Position numbers and translations under genes: made by a program
Notes under the pieces: generated by a model
Database searches by the model: none
The model's input: only the letters and a program-made list of their open reading frames with translations
Told to the model about the DNA's origin: nothing
In this document: piece by piece, positions 40,051 through 52,518 of the stretch
Numbering within the stretch: the stretch's first letter is position 1
Layout: each line of letters opens with the position of its first letter
Assembly: GCF_003173615.1 (NCBI RefSeq)
Contig: NZ_QGNA01000003.1
Coordinates: 806,001-870,000, forward strand
Direction: 5' to 3'
Source: Falsiroseomonas bella
GTDB lineage: Bacteria; Pseudomonadota; Alphaproteobacteria; Acetobacterales; Acetobacteraceae
Length of the DNA: 64,000 nt

Positions 40051-42618
40051 CTACCGGGCGCCGGCGGGGCGCAGCGCGGCCAGCGCCGCGGCCGCATCCT
40101 CGCCGCGATAGGGCTTGGCCAGCACCGGGCGCCCGGCGAAGCGCGGCGGCAGCACCAGCCGCGCCTCGTAGCCCGTGGTGAAGACGAAGGGCACGCCCGC
40201 CGCCGCCAGCGCATCGGCCAGCGGGAACACCGCCACCCCGTCGAGGTCGATGTCGAGCAGCGCCGCATCCGGCGGCACCGGCAGGATGGCCGCGGCCGCC
40301 TCCTCGATCCGCGCGACAGGGCCGATCACCTCCGCTCCCTGGGCGCGCAGGGCGGTCTCGAGCTCCATGGCGACCAGCGCGGAATCCTCCACCACCAGCA
40401 CGCGCAGCCCGCGCAGCGCCGGCGCCGCGTCCTGCCCCGCGCCCGGCCCATCGGGCGCCACGCCTGCCTCCGCGACGTGGCGCAGCGGCATCTCGACATG
40501 GAAGAGGATGCCCTCGGGGCGGAAGTCGAGCTTCGTGGTGCCGCCCACCTCATAGGCGAGGCTCCGCTCGATCATCATGCTGCCGAAGCCGCGATGCCCG
40601 GGGGCGGCGACGGGCGGTCCGCCGCTCTCGCGCCATTCCAGCAGCAACTTTCCCTCCGCGACCCGCCAGGAGACCTGCACCCGCCCGGCCGGCACCGAGA
40701 GGGCGCCATGCTTCACCGCATTCGTCGCCAGCTCGTGCAGCGCCAGGCTGACCGCCAGCGCCGCCTTGGGGCGCAGCCTGATGTCCGGCCCGACGATGCC
40801 GATGCGCGGCATGCCGCCCTCGGCGCCGAGATGCGGGTGCAGCTCCTCCTCCACCAGGCTGCGCAGCCCCGCCCCTTCCCAGCGGCTGCGCGACAGCAGC
40901 GAATGCGCCTTCGCCATCGCGCGCAGCCGGCCATGCAGGTCGGTCACGAAGCCGCCGACGGAGCCCGCGTTGCGGCTGGAATGGCGGACCAGCGCCTGGA
41001 TGTTGGCCAGCGTGTTCTTCACGCGATGATCGAGCTCGGCGAGCAGCAGGTCCTGCCGCTGCCTCGCCTCCGCGCGCTCCCGCGCGACCTCGTCCATCCG
41101 GCGCAGCACGACCTCGAGCAGGGAGACGCGCAGCGCCTGCGCCGCCTCCACCTCGATGGCCCGCCACGGCCGGCAGCGCCCGCGCACCGTCTCGCGCCAC
41201 GCGGCGAAGCTGCGGCGGGGCGCCACGCGCGCCCCCCCGCCCGTAACCTCCACCGGCTTGTTCGGGTTGCCCGCCCAGGTCACGGTCTGCACGACCTCGG
41301 GCCGGAACCAGATGATGCAGTCGCGCGGATCGCGCGTGAGGGAGAGCACCAGCGCGCCCGCCGCGACCGCGGCGAACCCGCGCGCCGGCGGAAAGGCCTC
41401 CGCCAGGCTGTCGAGCACCAGCACGCCATCCTCGGCCCGACTGCCGGCCCAGGCCGCGAAGGCGCGCACCTGCTCCTCCTCCGGCACGCGGCCGAGCGCG
41501 GCGTAGTTGCCTTCGATCAGCAGCGCGACGCCGGCGCTGTCCATGAAGTCGAGCAGGTTCGGGCGCTGGCGGATCAGGCCGAGCGCCAGGTTGTCCTCCC
41601 GCGCCATGACGCGGACGAGCCCTTCGTGCACGCGGTGCATGCGCTCGGCATGGGCGTGGTCCTCGGCGCGCTGCTTCGCCTCGATCTGCAGCGAGAACAT
41701 CCGCGCGAAGAGCTCGCAGGCGCCGCGGATCGCGACCGGCACGCGATGCGGCGTGCGGTGGTGGCAGGCGATCAGCCCCCACAGACGCCCGCCCTGCACG
41801 ATGGAGAGCGACATGGAGGCCCGCACGCCCATGTTCGCCAGGTAGTCCAGATGCAGCGGCGAGACGGAGCGCAGCGCGCAGCACGACAGATCCGTGGGTC
41901 GCCCGGTCAGCGGGGAGACGGGGGGCACCAGCGGCGCCGGGACGTAGCGCGCATCCGGGATGATGCGCAGCCAGTTCTGCACATAGAGCTCGCGCGCCTG
42001 CCTCGGCACGTCGCTCGCCGGGTAGTGCAGGCCGAGATAGGCGCCGATGCCCGCATCCCGCGCCTCCGCGATCACCTCGCCGCTGTCGTCGGGGGCGAAG
42101 CGGTAGACCATGACGCGGTCGAAGCCGGTGACGCGGCGGACCTCGTCGGCGGCGGCCTGGCAGAAGGCGCCGAGCGTACCCGCCTCGCCGAGCCGCGCGA
42201 TCATCGACAGCACGACCGGCAGCGGCCCCGGCCGCACCGCGCCGCCCGCGCCCTCCAGCGGCTCGATCTCCAGGATGATGCCGGCCGGCGTGCGGTGCGC
42301 GACGATATCGAGCACTCCACCACCGGGGAGGGCCGCCTCCAGCGCGCGACCGGCGGTCGGCGCCGGCTCCTCGGGCAGGGAGGCGATCTCGGCCAGCACC
42401 GCCGCCGGCAGCAGGTCGGCGGCCGCCTGCCCGGCGGCGGGCGCCGCGCCGGCGCCGAGCAGGCCGCCATCGCCGGCTGCCTGCAGCACCTCGAGGCTCT
42501 CGGGATGCAGCACCAGCAGCAGGCCATGCGGCTGGACGGAGCCGGGAATGTGGATCGGCTCGCGGTCGCAGTTGGAAAGGTCGGCCTCGCCAAAGGCAGG
42601 CAGCGGGAGCGCGCTCAT
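40051..42618 (-). CDS. bphP: bacteriophytochrome hybrid sensor kinase (PAS-GAF-PHY-HWE-REC)
   Basis: 855 residues. The N-terminal LSNCDREPIHIPGSVQPHG has Cys17, which binds biliverdin. The GAF domain shows GFDRVMVYRF, YLGLHYPASDVPRQARELY (PASDIP motif) and SVSPLHLDYLANMGVRASMSLSIV, with the chromophore histidines in LIACHHRTPHRVP. PHY domain next. The kinase is of the HWE type: phospho-acceptor His in ELDHRVKNTLANIQALV, N-box LHELATNAVKHGALS and W-x-E in LLLEWRESGG. The C-terminal receiver has VVEDSALVAM, Asp in LLDIDLDG and LAKPYRG. A red/far-red light sensor that autophosphorylates and can pass phosphate within or between proteins. No haem oxygenase gene is in the window to make biliverdin. 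Confidence 0.94.
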   Translation of the reverse strand: MSALPLPAFGEADLSNCDREPIHIPGSVQPHGLLLVLHPESLEVLQAAGDGGLLGAGAAPAAGQAAADLLPAAVLAEIASLPEEPAPTAGRALEAALPGGGVLDIVAHRTPAGIILEIEPLEGAGGAVRPGPLPVVLSMIARLGEAGTLGAFCQAAADEVRRVTGFDRVMVYRFAPDDSGEVIAEARDAGIGAYLGLHYPASDVPRQARELYVQNWLRIIPDARYVPAPLVPPVSPLTGRPTDLSCCALRSVSPLHLDYLANMGVRASMSLSIVQGGRLWGLIACHHRTPHRVPVAIRGACELFARMFSLQIEAKQRAEDHAHAERMHRVHEGLVRVMAREDNLALGLIRQRPNLLDFMDSAGVALLIEGNYAALGRVPEEEQVRAFAAWAGSRAEDGVLVLDSLAEAFPPARGFAAVAAGALVLSLTRDPRDCIIWFRPEVVQTVTWAGNPNKPVEVTGGGARVAPRRSFAAWRETVRGRCRPWRAIEVEAAQALRVSLLEVVLRRMDEVARERAEARQRQDLLLAELDHRVKNTLANIQALVRHSSRNAGSVGGFVTDLHGRLRAMAKAHSLLSRSRWEGAGLRSLVEEELHPHLGAEGGMPRIGIVGPDIRLRPKAALAVSLALHELATNAVKHGALSVPAGRVQVSWRVAEGKLLLEWRESGGPPVAAPGHRGFGSMMIERSLAYEVGGTTKLDFRPEGILFHVEMPLRHVAEAGVAPDGPGAGQDAAPALRGLRVLVVEDSALVAMELETALRAQGAEVIGPVARIEEAAAAILPVPPDAALLDIDLDGVAVFPLADALAAAGVPFVFTTGYEARLVLPPRFAGRPVLAKPYRGEDAAAALAALRPAGAR

Positions 42619-46807: not shown

Positions 46808-49672
46808 TCAACCTGTACGGGCGCGGTTGAGGGCGAGGAGGGCGGCGAGGGCGTCGTCGGTGGCGATATCCTCGGGCCAGCCATAGGCGGCGGCGACGGC
46901 GCGATCGAGATCGGCATGCAGGGCATCGAGCCAGGCGCCCTCCCCCGTGCCGCGCCGGTTGTAGAGGTTGGTCAGCGTGCGGGTCTTGAGCTGCTTTGCC
47001 GCGGCGGCGTCGCGTGGGATTTTTCGCGGCGGGAGATGCGGCAGCACATCGGGCACCTCCTCCACCCATTCGGGCGGGTTGAGCCAGCGGTCGCGCGCGG
47101 CGACGAGGGCGCGGGCGGCGTCGGCGATGCGGATGGCCCGCGCATCGGCGGCGTAGGAGGCGGCGGGGAGATTCGGGGTGAGGCCTTCGGGGAAGGCGAA
47201 GGTCTCGAAGGTGGTGGTGGGGGTGTAGCGCGGGCGATCCTCCAGCGAGGTGCCGAGGCGGAGCGCCCAGGCTTCGTGGAAGCGGCTGTGCAGGATGCCG
47301 AAGCTGGTGTCGTCGTCGCGGGCGATGGCCACCAGATTCTTGTCTGGAGTCACTGCTTTCGGGAGCCAGACAAAGACCCGGTGCTTCGAGACTTCTGGCG
47401 TGGCGATGAACCGCGCGAGGCCGTCTAGGCGCTGAAACAGTGCAGGTGCGCGACGCGCCAGCAGCCACCAGTGGCGACGCTCGGACGGGGAGCCAGATTT
47501 CGATCTAGCGGGCTGCACGTGCAGCACAACGTGCGCGAAAGGCTGAACAAAGAATGTGGCCTGCGTTTCCGGCATATCGCCAAAATTTATGATCCAGCGG
47601 TTCAGATGGCGGCCAGTGACATCCTCGCCGTTGTACCAAGGCGAAAGAACTTCGGCGTTGCTCCGGCCATTGGGATTGCTGGGTGCAGCGAGCCACGCAT
47701 GTGCGAGGTCGCCATCGATGTTGAACGCACCCTTCTTTGTGACGCCGCTGGACGCGATCGCACGGTTATTCGCGAGCGGCTGCGCCGTCGTCAGGTCGAA
47801 GTCGCCCGCGCTCAAATCAGCAAAGATCGTAGTGACGGTATAGCCGTCTAGGCTTGGTGAGCCAGCAGAATTCCCGTCGCCGAAGCAGACTATCGACACT
47901 CGCACCGCTGCACCGTCGAGCGTCCAGGGCTCGTCGGACCACGCATCGAAGATGACGCCTTGCTCGGTGATGCGATCCAGCACGCGGCGGTTGGCGCCGC
48001 CGCGGATGCTGTTGGTCGCGACGAGCCCCGCACGCGTCGTCGCGCCGTTCTCGATCTGCTCGCGGGCCTTCTCGAACCAATAGCAGACGAAGTCCGCAGC
48101 GCCCGGCACGCGACCGGCATACGCCTTGCGCAGCCGCGCCGTGTAGTCCTCGCCGAGTGCGCCGATCATCGCCTTGTCGCCGATGAAGGGCGGGTTGCCG
48201 ACGATGGCGTCGGCCTTCGGCCAATCCGCCACGCTGCCATCCGGGTTCAGCACGGCGTCGCGGCATTCGATGGTGTTCAGCGGCTTGAGGATGGGGTTGC
48301 CGGGCTGGGGCATGGCGTTGCGGCGCGCCCATTGGATGGCGCCGATCCAGACGGAGATGCGGGCCAGTTCCGCCGCATAGGCGTTCAGCTCGATGCCCAG
48401 CAGCACTTCCGGGCCGACTTCCGGCAATTGGCGTTGCAGGCCGAGCGCCTCCGACTCCAGCCCCGCGCGCAGCTCGATATCCTTGATCGCCATTAGCGCG
48501 AGATAGAGAAAATTTCCGCTGCCGCAGGCGGGGTCGAGCACGCGGTAGGCGCGCAGACGGTCGAGGAAGGCGCGGTAGATCGGCGTCGCCTGGGTGCGGG
48601 CGCGCTCGCGCCGCCGCGCGATCTCCGCGGGCGCGACGCCGGATTTCGGCACGGCAGCCATGATCGCCTCGATCCGCGCGCGCGCCTCCGCCCATTCGCG
48701 TTCCAGCGGGCGGATGATGACGGGGTTGATGATGAGGGAAATCTTCTCGCGGTCGGTGTAGTGGGCGCCGAGCTGGCCGCGTTTTTCGGGATCGAGCCCA
48801 CGCTCGAACAGGGTGCCGAAGATGGTCGGGTCGATCTCGCCCCAGTCGAGGCGCGCGGCCTCCTGCACCGCGGCGATGTCCTGGGCGGTCAGCGGCAGGG
48901 CGGTGTCGTCGTCGAACAGGCCGCCGTTGAACCAGTCGATCTCGACGAAATCGAGCGTGCCGCCGGGGTCCTTCATGGCGCGGAACAGGCGGCCGGCGAG
49001 ATCGGGGAAGCGCGCGGGGTTCTTGCGGGTGGTGGCGAGCAGGCTGTCGAGCACGCCGGCGGGCAGCAGGCCGACATCGTCGGCAAACAGGCAGAAGACG
49101 ATCCGGTTGACGAAATGCGCGACCAATTGCGGATCGTGGCCGCGCGCGCGCAGGCGGGCGGCGAGTTCGGCGAATTTGCCGGCGGCGTCCTCGGTGATGG
49201 CCTGGCGGGTGCGTTCGGGGCGGAGGCGGTCGGGATCGGAGAGGACGGCCTTGAGCAGGGCGCGGCGCCGGGGGTCGCGCAGCTCCTCCAGCGTGACGGT
49301 GTGGGTCTCGCTGACGGCGTTGGTCCAGTTGGTGCGGATGATGATGGTCTCCATGTCGGAGACCACGAGGAGCGGCGGGTTTTCCAGCGCGAGGGCGTAT
49401 TGCTGGAGCTGGACGAAGGCGGCGCGCAGGTCCTTGCGCTTGCCCTTGTATTCCCAGCCGAAATGGCCGCGCTTCCACACATCGGCCCAGCCGCGCTGGC
49501 CGGTGGTCTTGTTGGCGCCGCGTTCGAAGCAGAACCATTCGCCCTTGGGGTCGGCGGCGGCCGGGGTGGGTTCGTCGAGCAGGGCGCAGAGGTCGTTGAA
49601 GTGGGACTGCGAGGCCTGGTCCTCGCGCAGGGCGCTGCCCTGCCACTTGGCAATGAATTGTTCCGGCGTCAT
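46808..49672 (-). CDS. MmeI-like type IIG/IIL restriction-modification protein
   Basis: 954 residues in one polypeptide. N-terminal nuclease region WFCFERGANKTTGQRGWADVWKRGHFGWEYKGKRKD (about 46-81; WEYKGK holds the E-x-K part of the nuclease site). A helical spacer follows, then an N6-adenine methyltransferase: motif X LGAHYTDREKI, motif I VLDPACGSGNFLYLAL and motif IV IVGNPPFIGD. Last comes a target-recognition region (about 570-745) and a C-terminal helical part. Such enzymes cut and methylate DNA from one binding site, and specificity changes with the recognition domain. Bases 47440-47940, the recognition section, are less GC-rich than the rest. No separate specificity or nuclease gene is needed. 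Confidence 0.88.
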   Translation of the reverse strand: MTPEQFIAKWQGSALREDQASQSHFNDLCALLDEPTPAAADPKGEWFCFERGANKTTGQRGWADVWKRGHFGWEYKGKRKDLRAAFVQLQQYALALENPPLLVVSDMETIIIRTNWTNAVSETHTVTLEELRDPRRRALLKAVLSDPDRLRPERTRQAITEDAAGKFAELAARLRARGHDPQLVAHFVNRIVFCLFADDVGLLPAGVLDSLLATTRKNPARFPDLAGRLFRAMKDPGGTLDFVEIDWFNGGLFDDDTALPLTAQDIAAVQEAARLDWGEIDPTIFGTLFERGLDPEKRGQLGAHYTDREKISLIINPVIIRPLEREWAEARARIEAIMAAVPKSGVAPAEIARRRERARTQATPIYRAFLDRLRAYRVLDPACGSGNFLYLALMAIKDIELRAGLESEALGLQRQLPEVGPEVLLGIELNAYAAELARISVWIGAIQWARRNAMPQPGNPILKPLNTIECRDAVLNPDGSVADWPKADAIVGNPPFIGDKAMIGALGEDYTARLRKAYAGRVPGAADFVCYWFEKAREQIENGATTRAGLVATNSIRGGANRRVLDRITEQGVIFDAWSDEPWTLDGAAVRVSIVCFGDGNSAGSPSLDGYTVTTIFADLSAGDFDLTTAQPLANNRAIASSGVTKKGAFNIDGDLAHAWLAAPSNPNGRSNAEVLSPWYNGEDVTGRHLNRWIINFGDMPETQATFFVQPFAHVVLHVQPARSKSGSPSERRHWWLLARRAPALFQRLDGLARFIATPEVSKHRVFVWLPKAVTPDKNLVAIARDDDTSFGILHSRFHEAWALRLGTSLEDRPRYTPTTTFETFAFPEGLTPNLPAASYAADARAIRIADAARALVAARDRWLNPPEWVEEVPDVLPHLPPRKIPRDAAAAKQLKTRTLTNLYNRRGTGEGAWLDALHADLDRAVAAAYGWPEDIATDDALAALLALNRARTG

Positions 49673-49711
49673 GCGCGCATGGTCCCGCGCGCGGGGTTGA
49701 AGGTCCATAGG

Positions 49712-49772
49712 CGGATGGAGGGGTCCGGGGACGATCATCGTCCCCGGCGGGGGTTCGGGGGCAGCGCCCCCG
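49712..49772. repeat. double-hairpin intergenic repeat, copy 1
   Basis: Two hairpins: GGGGACGA-TCA-TCGTCCCC and CGGGGGC-AGC-GCCCCCG, joined by GGCGGGGGTT and preceded by CGGATGGAGGGG. The sequence is almost identical to 52457-52518 (one substitution and one extra T). It lies after the stop of the acyl-CoA dehydrogenase-like gene and before the restriction gene start, so it may end the former's transcript. Confidence 0.7.
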
Positions 49773-49776
49773 CCCT

Positions 49777-50937
49777 TCAGAAGATCCGGTCCACCGGCGC
49801 CCCCAACGCCATCGCGCCGGCGTAGCGCGCCTGCGGGCCGGCCTGGAGCGGGTGGTAGCGGGCGCCCTGGATGTCGCGGAACAGGCGCTCCAGGCCGGCG
49901 GCGCGGTGGAAGCCGGCGCCGCCGGACAGTTCGAGCGCGAGTTCCACGGTGCGGATGGCGTGCTCGGTGACGAGGGCCTTGCCGGTCATCACGTCGTTGA
50001 TGCTGTCGGCGCTTGGCGCGTTGCGCTCGGCGGTCTGCAGCATCCAGTCATGGGCGAGGCGCGCGGCGCGCAGGGACGTGTCCATGCGGCCGGCGAGGTG
50101 GAGGACGTCCTCGGTCGGCACGCGGCGCTTCGCCAGCGTCACGGCCAGGTCGCGGGCCTGCTCGGCGACGCCGAGATAGACGGCGTAGACCAGCGGGAAG
50201 GCGATGGTGGCGATGATGTGGAACAGCGGGTGCCACTGGCCCGCCGGGCGCTTCAGCGCGACGCCGGCATCGGGAATGAAGAGGCCCTCGATCGCGACGT
50301 CGTGCGAGCCGGTGCCGCGCATCCCCAGCGCCCGCCAGGTGTCCAGCACCTTCACCTCCGGCGCCTTCATGTTGACGGCGAAGTGCAGCACGTGGTCGGC
50401 GCCGTCCTCATGCAGCACGGCGCCGGTCATCATCAGGTCGCCCAGCGGGGCGCCTGACGAAAAGACCTTGCGGGCGGTGATGCGGTAGCCGCCCTCGACG
50501 CGCTCGGCCTTGCCGGAGCCGGGCAGCCAGTCGGAGCCGCCGGAGGAGAGCAGGATGATGCGCTCCGCGGCGATGCGCTTCAGCAGCGGCTCCATCGCGG
50601 CGAGCTTCTGGTGGCGCCAGCGCCAGGCCGGCACCGCGACCTGGTGGGTGTGCATGGAGAAGGCGAGCGCGGTGGAGGAGCAGCCATGCGCGAGGATGCG
50701 CAGCATCTCCGCCAGCTCCCGCACGCCGGCGCCGGCGCCGCCCAGCTCGGTGGGGACGCCGGCCTCGACCAGGCCGGCCTGCTTCAGCAACGCGTAGTTC
50801 TCGGCGACGAAGCGGTCCTGCGCGTCGGCCTCGGCGGCGCCGGCGGCGAGGTGGGGGACCAGGCGGTGGGCGCGCTCGGCGATCGGGCCTTCGGTCAGGA
50901 TCGCGTCAGGCTTGGCCGGCGTGGCGATGACGTTCAT
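49777..50937 (-). CDS. acyl-CoA dehydrogenase / flavin-dependent monooxygenase family protein
   Basis: 386 residues of the acyl-CoA dehydrogenase fold. KQAGLVEAGVPTELGGAGAGVRELAEMLRILAHGCSSTALAFSMH opens the helical domain, YRITARKVFSSGAPLGDLMMTGAV and TWRALGMRGTGSHDVAIEGLFIPD form the beta domain, and LALELSGGAGFHRAAGLERLFRDIQGARYHPL closes it. There is no clear catalytic glutamate. The sequence is more like the class D flavin monooxygenase branch (DszC/HpaH type), which uses reduced FMN. Divergent from an HxlR regulator with a shared operator, so likely under its control and part of an oxidative or redox-stress response. Confidence 0.8.
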   Translation of the reverse strand: MNVIATPAKPDAILTEGPIAERAHRLVPHLAAGAAEADAQDRFVAENYALLKQAGLVEAGVPTELGGAGAGVRELAEMLRILAHGCSSTALAFSMHTHQVAVPAWRWRHQKLAAMEPLLKRIAAERIILLSSGGSDWLPGSGKAERVEGGYRITARKVFSSGAPLGDLMMTGAVLHEDGADHVLHFAVNMKAPEVKVLDTWRALGMRGTGSHDVAIEGLFIPDAGVALKRPAGQWHPLFHIIATIAFPLVYAVYLGVAEQARDLAVTLAKRRVPTEDVLHLAGRMDTSLRAARLAHDWMLQTAERNAPSADSINDVMTGKALVTEHAIRTVELALELSGGAGFHRAAGLERLFRDIQGARYHPLQAGPQARYAGAMALGAPVDRIF

Positions 50938-50997
50938 GGCGGTTGCTCCCGTGCCTTTCTGGCCAGGGGAGCATCACGTGTCGGGGCCTTCCGAATC

Positions 50998-51016
50998 CAG
51001 TTCAGGAAATGAACTG
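50998..51016. promoter_or_regulatory. candidate HxlR operator 1
   Basis: CAGTTCA, GGAAA, TGAACTG: a perfect seven-base inverted repeat with five-base spacer, centred in the 132-base gap between the divergent flavoprotein and hxlR genes. The core AGTTCA-N5-TGAACT recurs exactly at 51761-51777. Dimeric winged-helix regulators of this family bind such dyads near their own promoters. Confidence 0.65.
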
Positions 51017-51069
51017 CCGCCGGGCGGTCCGGCACTGGTAGGATGCTGCGCAACACGGGGAGACGGGCC

Positions 51070-51762
51070 ATGGAGGACAAGGGCAGCTACGGGCAGTTCT
51101 GTCCGGTGGCGATGGCGGCGGAGGTGCTCTGCTCGCGCTGGACCGTGCTGGTGCTGCGGGAGATGCTGGCGGGCTCCACGCGCTTCAACGAGTTGCGGCG
51201 CGGGGTGCCGCGCATGTCCCCTGCCCTGCTGTCGAAGCGGCTGAAGGAGCTGGAGGCGGCCGGGGTCGTGGTGGCGGCGCCGGGGGAGCGCGGGGTGGTG
51301 GAGTATCGACTCTCGCCCGCCGGGGAGGAGTTGCGGCCGATCGTGATGGGGATGGGGTTCTGGGGGCAGCGCTGGATCGAGAGCCAGCTGTCGCTGAAGA
51401 ACCTCGATCCCTCGCTGCTGATGTGGGACATGCGGCGGAACCTGCGGGTGGAGCCGATGCCGCCGCGGCGCTGCACCATCGCCTTCCAGTATCCAGAGCT
51501 CGCGGAGAACCGGCGGCATTGGTGGCTGGTGGTGAATGGCGGCGCGGTGGATCTGTGCTCGGTGGATCCGGGGTTCGAGGTGGACCTCTATGTCGTGGGC
51601 TCGCTGCGCGCGCTGACGGCGATCTGGATGGGGCTGACGACGGTGGGGCGGGAGGTCGCGGCGAAGCAACTGGAACTGCTGGGCGACGCCATGCTGGCGC
51701 GCAGCATCGAGCAATGGCTGGGGCTCAGCCCGTTTGCAGGAGAGACTCGGAAGGTCGCGTAG
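51070..51762 (+). CDS. HxlR/winged-helix family transcriptional regulator
   Basis: 230 residues. The N-terminal HxlR domain YGQFCPVAMAAEVLCSRWTVLVLREMLAGSTRFNELRRGVPRMSPALLSKRLKELEAAGVV contains the winged helix-turn-helix and a cysteine (C11) in the place where HxlR proteins often sense electrophiles or oxidants, with a second at C21. About 120 further residues, unlike the short HxlR proteins, may be an SCP2-like ligand-binding domain (WWLVVNGGAVDLCSVDPGFEVDLYVVGSLRALTAIWMG). It probably controls the divergent flavoprotein gene, itself and possibly the haemoglobin gene downstream. Confidence 0.86.
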   Translation: MEDKGSYGQFCPVAMAAEVLCSRWTVLVLREMLAGSTRFNELRRGVPRMSPALLSKRLKELEAAGVVVAAPGERGVVEYRLSPAGEELRPIVMGMGFWGQRWIESQLSLKNLDPSLLMWDMRRNLRVEPMPPRRCTIAFQYPELAENRRHWWLVVNGGAVDLCSVDPGFEVDLYVVGSLRALTAIWMGLTTVGREVAAKQLELLGDAMLARSIEQWLGLSPFAGETRKVA

Positions 51763-51777
51763 TTCAGATCCTGAACT
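51761..51777. promoter_or_regulatory. candidate HxlR operator 2, upstream of the haemoglobin gene
   Basis: AGTTCA, GATCC, TGAACT: same half-sites and spacer length as operator 1 with a different spacer. It overlaps the hxlR stop codon and lies 106 bases before the haemoglobin start. Such an exact match inside 800 bases is unlikely to be chance. Confidence 0.6.
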
Positions 51778-51882
51778 GGAGGCTGAGCGACGCGGGCGCG
51801 CAGGCTCCGCGCCGCGGGACCGGACCGGCCCCGCCCGCCCCGGCAACACGCCCGGGGCGCGCCACGCGGCGTGGAGGCAGCA

Positions 51883-52257
51883 ATGGGCACGAGCATGTAT
51901 GAACGGCTGGGCGGCGCATCGGGGATCGGCCACCTGGTGGACGACATCGTCGAGGCGCACATGGCCAATCCGCTCATCCAGGCGCGCTTCCTGCCCTATC
52001 GCGAGCAGCCGGAGCGCCTGGCCGCGGTGAAGCGGCATCTGCGCGACTTCCTCGGCATGGGAAGCGGCGGGCCGGAGCAGTACGACGGCAAGGGCATGGT
52101 CGGCGCGCATCGCGGGATGAACATCGGCGCCGAGGAGTACATGGCCGCGATGGACGACATCCTCGGCGTGCTGACGAAGCACGGCGTGGACGAGCAGACG
52201 CGGAAGGACGTTCTGGCGATCGCCTATTCGCTGAAGGGCGAGATCCTGCGCGTGTGA
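51883..52257 (+). CDS. group 1-type truncated haemoglobin
   Basis: 124 residues. SMYERLGGASGIGHLVDDIVEAHMANPLIQARF is the helix A/B/E start of 2-on-2 globins; the proximal His is in GAHRGMNIGAEEY, and RHLRDFLGMGSGGPEQYDGKGM is the E-F region. Truncated haemoglobins bind O2, NO or CO and often protect from nitrosative or oxidative stress. The start ATG follows GGAGGCAGCA; a GTG four codons earlier overlaps the ribosome-binding site. Operator 2 suggests HxlR control, matching a redox theme. Confidence 0.88.
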   Translation: MGTSMYERLGGASGIGHLVDDIVEAHMANPLIQARFLPYREQPERLAAVKRHLRDFLGMGSGGPEQYDGKGMVGAHRGMNIGAEEYMAAMDDILGVLTKHGVDEQTRKDVLAIAYSLKGEILRV

Positions 52258-52261
52258 CGGC

Positions 52262-52444
52262 TCAGGGGCCGTCTTCCTCGATCTCCCAGCCCTCGGCGAG
52301 GTAGCGCGCGAGGATTTCCGCGTGGCGGTCCTCGGGGTGGGATTCGAGGAGCTCGTCCTCGCCGTCCAGCACCTCGGTGCCGGCGTCGGTGGTGACGATG
52401 ACGATGGTGGCGAGCTCGCCTTTCGCCAGGACGGTTTCGCGCAT
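52262..52444 (-). CDS. small acidic protein of unknown function
   Basis: 60 residues, MRETVLAKGELATIVIVTTDAGTEVLDGEDELLESHPEDRHAEILARYLAEGWEIEEDGP. Strongly acidic, no membrane segment or known motif. It may be a real small gene given coding-type amino-acid composition and a clean ATG; it also converges closely (four bases) on the haemoglobin gene. Upstream codons of the frame come from the double-hairpin repeat and were not included. Function unknown. Confidence 0.55.
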   Translation of the reverse strand: MRETVLAKGELATIVIVTTDAGTEVLDGEDELLESHPEDRHAEILARYLAEGWEIEEDGP

Positions 52445-52456
52445 GGGGTGTTCTGA

Positions 52457-52518
52457 CGGATGGAGGGGCCCGGGGACGATCATCGTCCCCGGCGGGGGTT
52501 TCGGGGGCAGCGCCCCCG
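52457..52518. repeat. double-hairpin intergenic repeat, copy 2
   Basis: Near-identical to 49712-49772, with both stems intact. It lies between the DEAD-box helicase stop and the small acidic gene start on the same strand, the same placement as copy 1 (after one minus-strand gene, before the next), which fits a terminator-like function of the upstream gene. Confidence 0.7.

Follow-up and report, generated by a model that had tools for sequence, protein, structure and literature searches.

Two identical dyads flanking an hxlR-type gene as candidate operators of a predicted HxlR-SCP2 activator

Introduction

In the 64,000-nucleotide stretch of Falsiroseomonas bella DNA analysed here (the window), two copies of one inverted repeat, AGTTCA-N5-TGAACT, stand on either side of a gene for an HxlR-family regulator. 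This raises the question whether the repeats are operators of the protein encoded between them and, if so, how this protein would act and which genes it would serve. A preliminary description of the locus, made from the letters alone, had placed one dyad in the divergent promoter of hxlR and a flavoprotein gene and the other across the hxlR stop codon, ahead of a truncated globin gene. It took the pair for a real binding site of a small regulon comprising a flavin monooxygenase-like enzyme, the regulator and the globin, possibly for NO, oxidant or electrophile stress sensed by N-terminal cysteines, and it named a genome scan for the motif as a check.

Results

The coordinates bear out this placement, and identical half-sites are present on both flanks of hxlR (Table 1); only the first position had been given one base too early (50998 instead of 50999). 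Dyad 2 overlaps the hxlR stop codon at 51760-51762 and ends 105 bp before the preferred globin start codon, ATG 51883, which stands after GGAGG.

Table 1. Positions of the features discussed, in window coordinates
Feature	Position	Strand	Remarks
MmeI-type fused methyltransferase and target-recognition domain	46808-49738	-	PF20464, PF20465, PF20466, PF20473; adjoins the regulon
Acyl-CoA-dehydrogenase-fold flavoprotein	49777-50937	-	386 aa, divergent from hxlR
Putative -10 of the flavoprotein gene, GATGCT	50970-50975	-	23 nt after dyad 1
Putative operator dyad 1	50999-51015	.	AGTTCA-GGAAA-TGAACT (AGTTCAGGAAATGAACT); divergent hxlR/flavoprotein promoter
Putative -10 of hxlR, TAGGAT	51039-51044	+	23 nt after dyad 1
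hxlR-SCP2 regulator	51070-51762	+	230 aa, corrected start; first-ATG ORF from 51043
Putative operator dyad 2	51761-51777	.	AGTTCA-GATCC-TGAACT (AGTTCAGATCCTGAACT); before the globin gene
Putative -10 of the globin gene, CAGGCT	51801-51806	+	23 nt after dyad 2
Group 1 truncated globin (TrHbN)	51883-52257	+	124 aa, preferred start; longest ORF from GTG 51871

Within the window, the two dyads are the only matches with zero to two mismatches, and two more matches with three mismatches, at 41277 and 61190, are at chance level. The genome scan showed that the motif is not common genome-wide: in 5,944,573 bases, where base composition predicts 0.016 exact matches, dyads 1 and 2 are the only places with no or one mismatch, and the reversed control pattern gave no match. 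The loosened pattern RGTWCA-N5-TGWACY with one mismatch allowed occurs at 20 places in the same genome versus 36 for its control, which marks the strict form of the motif as its special feature.

A scan of 20 genomes from this genus and family showed exact sites at five places (two in G000, one in G005, two in G007), all of them at hxlR loci; several of these genomes hold single-mismatch matches elsewhere. One such one-mismatch sequence, AGTTCAAGGCATGAACG, occurs once each in the same-genus genomes G004, G006, G012 and G013. Across 12 genomes with homologues, six of the seven places with an exact AGTWCA-N5-TGAACT belong to the hxlR locus, as judged by contig, position and site sequence. Neither these genomes nor the loosened pattern in the host genome gave a sign of a larger regulon in trans.

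For a wider comparison we used 114 homologous loci, namely 34 stretches and 80 loci (the best 80 of 115 relatives from one contig scan); two are duplicates, leaving 112 distinct, and several are close kin, so that locus counts do not equal independent events. The best pattern match in the 320 bp upstream of hxlR had at most one mismatch in 33, at most two in 66 and at most three in 92 of the 114 loci. Dinucleotide shuffles gave 0, 17 and 154 of 2280 in the same test, and hxlR coding sequence taken as control gave 0, 0 and 8 of 114. A matrix built from the sites with at most two mismatches scored above its threshold of 8 bits upstream of hxlR in 100/114 loci (98/112 distinct), where background predicts 0.028 per region; no upstream site above threshold was found in the other 14. 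It also recovered a site in 33 of the 47 distinct loci that had given no training site. Tandem dyads 21-23 bp apart, corresponding to two helical turns, were seen in 39 pairs. These sequence comparisons make the motif the likely operator shared by an entire HxlR clade.

The regulator itself probably starts at ATG 51070 rather than ATG 51043, because the latter falls within the putative -10 hexamer and the initial residues are missing from most homologues. Its DNA-binding part matches PF01638 (HxlR/DUF24) with 76.4 bits (cutoff 20.8) and shares the winged-helix fold of HypR (4a5m; VIA-align Z 13.7 over 94 residues, 1.7 A). Cys11 and Cys163 (20 and 172 in ORF numbering) are invariant in all 112 distinct loci and Cys21 is present in 88 of them, so the proposed sensing by N-terminal cysteines is possible. 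The C-terminal part, modelled alone with a mean pLDDT of 88.9, resembles SCP2-fold entries (Foldseek E 2e-6 to 7e-4; VIA-align Z 12.1-9), and residues 119-239 (ORF numbering) align best with the alkylsulfatase PisA1 (Z 12.1), SCP2-like-2 (11.8) and rabbit SCP2 (11.4). In sequence, PF02036 (SCP2) scores 17.7 bits, below its curated cutoff of 21.3, and is matched at E up to 0.1 by 10 of 42 members; the family profile finds SCP2-like-2 at E 0.06. The modelled domain has the SCP2 fold and would probably bind a hydrophobic ligand, and the regulator is best read as a ligand- and/or cysteine-gated activator. Two records, L131 (labelled Oceanobacillus sp. HTM 045) and L166 (Nodosilinea sp.), also encode this regulator, which is otherwise found mostly in proteobacteria, and may be mislabelled, contaminated or transferred.

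The promoter layout suggests activation. Spacing was taken as the distance beyond the closest dyad at which an NA...T hexamer begins. Towards hxlR this hexamer stands at offsets of 21, 22 and 23 nt in 10, 33 and 29 of 100 loci (72 in all), and towards the divergent gene in 1, 35 and 26 of 100 (61 at 22-23 nt); all remaining offsets have 0-9 loci each. With the stricter [TC]A...T, the usual offsets account for 57/97 loci towards hxlR and 37/98 towards the divergent gene. Of the 38 loci with tandem dyads, 33 have the hxlR -10 at this distance from the near dyad and three from the far dyad; for the divergent -10, searched with the strict pattern, the counts are eight and one, respectively. The dyad centre would thereby fall at about -43 in standard numbering, beside the -35 slot, where TTGACA is matched a little better than in shuffled sequence (mean 3.19 vs 2.63 of 6), so that a weak -35 may be present. 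In the window the globin -10 is weak, and no sigma-70 pair was found at 50900-51950. Since spacing this rigid would imply contact with RNA polymerase, i.e. activation, it suggests an activator bound near -43 rather than a simple repressor.

YodB, CatR and HypR are described as repressors released by electrophiles, and the dyads could be operators of a protein of this kind that blocks polymerase at the -35 slot. The invariant position of the sensing cysteine and the weak -35 excess would suit such a protein, and an excerpt of PMC8063818 describes redox-released repression for YodB. Repressor sites, however, need no fixed spacing, and here the distance to the -10 varies by only about 1-2 bp across three promoter settings and follows the near dyad in tandem loci; given also the window promoters in which no sigma-70 pair was detected, we consider repression unlikely.

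Dyad 2 is identical in G007 and has the symmetric variant GGTTCA-N5-TGAACC in G005 and G014. A site near or past the hxlR stop exists in 17 of the 114 loci, with NA...T at 21-23 nt in forward direction in 11 and in reverse direction in two. Several of these sites precede a co-directional gene: a globin gene in the window and G007, and also in L149, where the degenerate AGTCCA-N5-AGGACT is below the matrix threshold; a GFA gene in L122 and L123 and, by ORF sequences, in L126 and L136; and a DUF1330 gene in L107 and L119. L035 (G014) and L037 (G005) have kept the downstream dyad with the globin absent and the next gene convergent, and there the dyad may be a relic or serve a different function.

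In 40/114 loci hxlR itself contains another dyad-like stretch, always at the same codons (peptide IQFLYP and variants); it is absent from the window hxlR. Computed with kinship left in, its excess over synonymous shuffles is 40 versus 14.5 above 8 bits and 24 versus 3.8 above 13 bits, which we regard as a lead. No -10 at the right distance was found for it, and its Ile codon column ranks only second in AT bias. The stretch is situated some 280-300 nt ahead of the stop codon of hxlR, with rare ATA codons frequent, and examples are L039, L073, L091, L092, L094, L096, L098, L103-L105, L113, L115, L117, L137, L140, L142, L145, L147, L148, L150, L152, L155, L166 and L167. The 40 loci with an intragenic dyad and the 17 with a downstream dyad share no member (Fisher p 0.0003), an exclusivity that was not significant in a tree-aware test.

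These observations bear on the idea that dyad 1 alone works, dyad 2 being either a relic or an accessory site used in DNA looping and autoregulation, and the globin gene uncontrolled. It would account for the downstream dyads of G005 and G014 that stand without a globin gene and for intragenic dyads that exceed synonymous expectation, have no fitting -10 and never accompany a downstream dyad. With this exclusivity lost in the tree-aware test, and with forward -10 hexamers at the usual distance and co-directional genes of the regulon type behind several downstream dyads, we find the idea improbable. That the dyads are a product of chance, a terminator or another genome-wide motif is suggested by the overlap of dyad 2 with the end of a gene and can practically be dismissed, as both genome-wide occurrences lie at hxlR, the motif is conserved across 112 loci, and the terminator reading fell for want of a T run or a scan match at 50900-51950.

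The flavoprotein scores above cutoff for PF00441, PF02770, PF02771 and PF08028 and reaches no NCBIfam equivalog cutoff. Its PDB neighbours include nitrososynthases, flavin monooxygenases and dehydrogenases, so it is probably a group D flavin monooxygenase or a dehydrogenase by sequence; the earlier label of a flavin monooxygenase-like enzyme fits the fold. Neighbouring genes were called by a composition score that missed hxlR in 17 loci, which makes all neighbour counts lower bounds: the flavoprotein family occurs in at least 40 loci and was scored as immediate divergent neighbour in at least 29. Other divergent neighbours encode DUF1330, a FAD_binding_4/BBE oxidase, SRPBCC, a tautomerase, a SCO4226-like protein and globin. 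Together, the genes of the regulon look like a small set of enzymes against a hydrophobic or electrophilic compound.

The globin matches PF01152, and its best PDB match is Shewanella benthica HbN (7tt9, E 5.8e-27). The heme pocket alignment retains the proximal His F8, which places the protein among TrHbN globins; as far as an excerpt of PMC11904497 describes S. benthica HbN, the B13 His is kept as well and Val replaces Phe at B10. The stretch after CD1 is longer than in the Shewanella protein. At B10, M. tuberculosis HbN (MtHbN) has Tyr, a residue absent from this alignment column in all 13 linked globins. With Val in place of Tyr B10, NO sensing or NO detoxification is not supported, and the NO response considered in the preliminary description was dropped as the main hypothesis.

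Globins of this subfamily occur near hxlR in 13/114 loci, downstream in three and divergent in 10, in L164 beyond a berberine-bridge-like gene. In a search with the globin, 25 of 385 genomes of the class gave a match at E 1e-8. The top six comprise the window globin and five others, three of which stand beside an HxlR gene with a dyad; for the other two, from one genus, no such gene was found in the flank examined, and none of the weaker matches has one. Among the 20 genomes from genus and family, a close globin exists only in G000 and G007, with a marginal match (E 7e-4) in G010. On the HxlR tree, in which 49 of 109 inner branches are unsupported, globin linkage changes at least six times.

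A perfect palindrome, GGGGACGATCATCGTCCCC, has identical copies at 49727-49745 and 52472-52490 (0 expected) that sit in a longer repeated intergenic stretch. Called ORFs start within it (MIVPGPLHP), so the genes at 46808-49738 and 52262-52483 have probably been given start codons that are too early.

Discussion

The recurrence of motif, gene linkage and promoter spacing in homologues sustains two proposals of the preliminary description, that the dyads belong to a real binding-site family with the regulator as likely owner, and that flavoprotein, regulator and truncated globin form a small local regulon. The activator-like spacing between dyad and -10, the C-terminal SCP2 domain and the broader range of target enzymes go beyond it. 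We consider it probable that the dyads are operators of the intervening HxlR-SCP2 protein acting as an activator, which would serve hxlR and the flavoprotein gene as well as the globin gene. This reading draws on features visible in the DNA: a conserved motif that keeps a fixed distance to the -10-like elements and is nearly confined to the hxlR locus. An HxlR-SCP2 dimer would bind each 17-bp dyad and, placed at about -43, recruit RNA polymerase to promoters without a good -35. Dyad 1 would thereby serve both hxlR and the divergent flavoprotein gene, and dyad 2 the globin gene. More speculatively, the activating signal could be a hydrophobic or electrophilic molecule that reaches the SCP2 domain and/or the invariant Cys11, and the flavoprotein might deal with this molecule together with the globin, which would be a heme protein that binds oxygen or is redox-active.

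A broader proposal, which we put forward tentatively and would not yet bet on, is that HxlR-SCP2 proteins are a new class of hydrophobic-ligand-gated, cysteine-bearing activators with divergent promoters, exchangeable enzymes and a hidden intragenic operator. One operator or a tandem pair would drive symmetric divergent promoters, and enzymes would join simply by gaining a 17-bp dyad suitably spaced from their -10. The exchangeable detoxification enzymes would comprise the flavoprotein, a berberine-bridge-like oxidase, DUF1330, SRPBCC, a tautomerase, GFA and the truncated globin, and many lineages would keep a further operator in their own hxlR coding sequence. The activator reading itself turns the two sites of the window into a testable code for the regulon, in which a 17-bp operator stands 21-23 nt ahead of a -10. 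If it is right, operator, mode of action and targets could be assigned to a widespread clade of regulators, a group of bacterial truncated globins would gain a candidate regulator, and the inducer of the SCP2 domain would show the substrate of the target enzymes.

Among known systems, the type member of the family, HxlR of Bacillus subtilis, is an activator and responds to formaldehyde by a Cys11-Lys13 bridge according to an excerpt of PMC7835342. Its structures (PDB 7bzd, 7bze, 7bzg) share the winged-helix fold of the window regulator (Z 12.7-13.2) with Cys11 in the same place, and an activator-type promoter layout may be common to both. In contrast to the B. subtilis protein, the window regulator has a C-terminal SCP2 domain and Val instead of Lys two residues past the Cys. 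This Lys is present in none of the 112 distinct loci, and with no partner for the Cys11-Lys13 bridge, formaldehyde sensing of the B. subtilis type is unlikely; a different role in relation to aldehydes may be compatible with the GFA-family neighbours in some loci.

The redox sensors YodB, HypR and QsrR likewise share the fold (Z 13.2-13.7), an N-terminal cysteine and a palindromic operator. An excerpt of PMC8063818 gives the YodB operator as TACT-N7-AGTA, different from AGTTCA-N5-TGAACT in the window, and the length of YodB as 112 aa; these sensors are short, have no SCP2 domain and are described as repressors. The C-terminal part of the regulator has the same fold as the ligand domains of the alkylsulfatase C-terminus, SCP2 and UbiJ; unlike in these, it is fused to a DNA-binding domain, and its sequence is below the Pfam cutoff. 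No account of an HxlR-SCP2 operator system was found in open-access PMC full text. An HxlR regulator with a palindromic operator is of a known kind, and the fusion with an SCP2 domain together with this operator code appears to be new.
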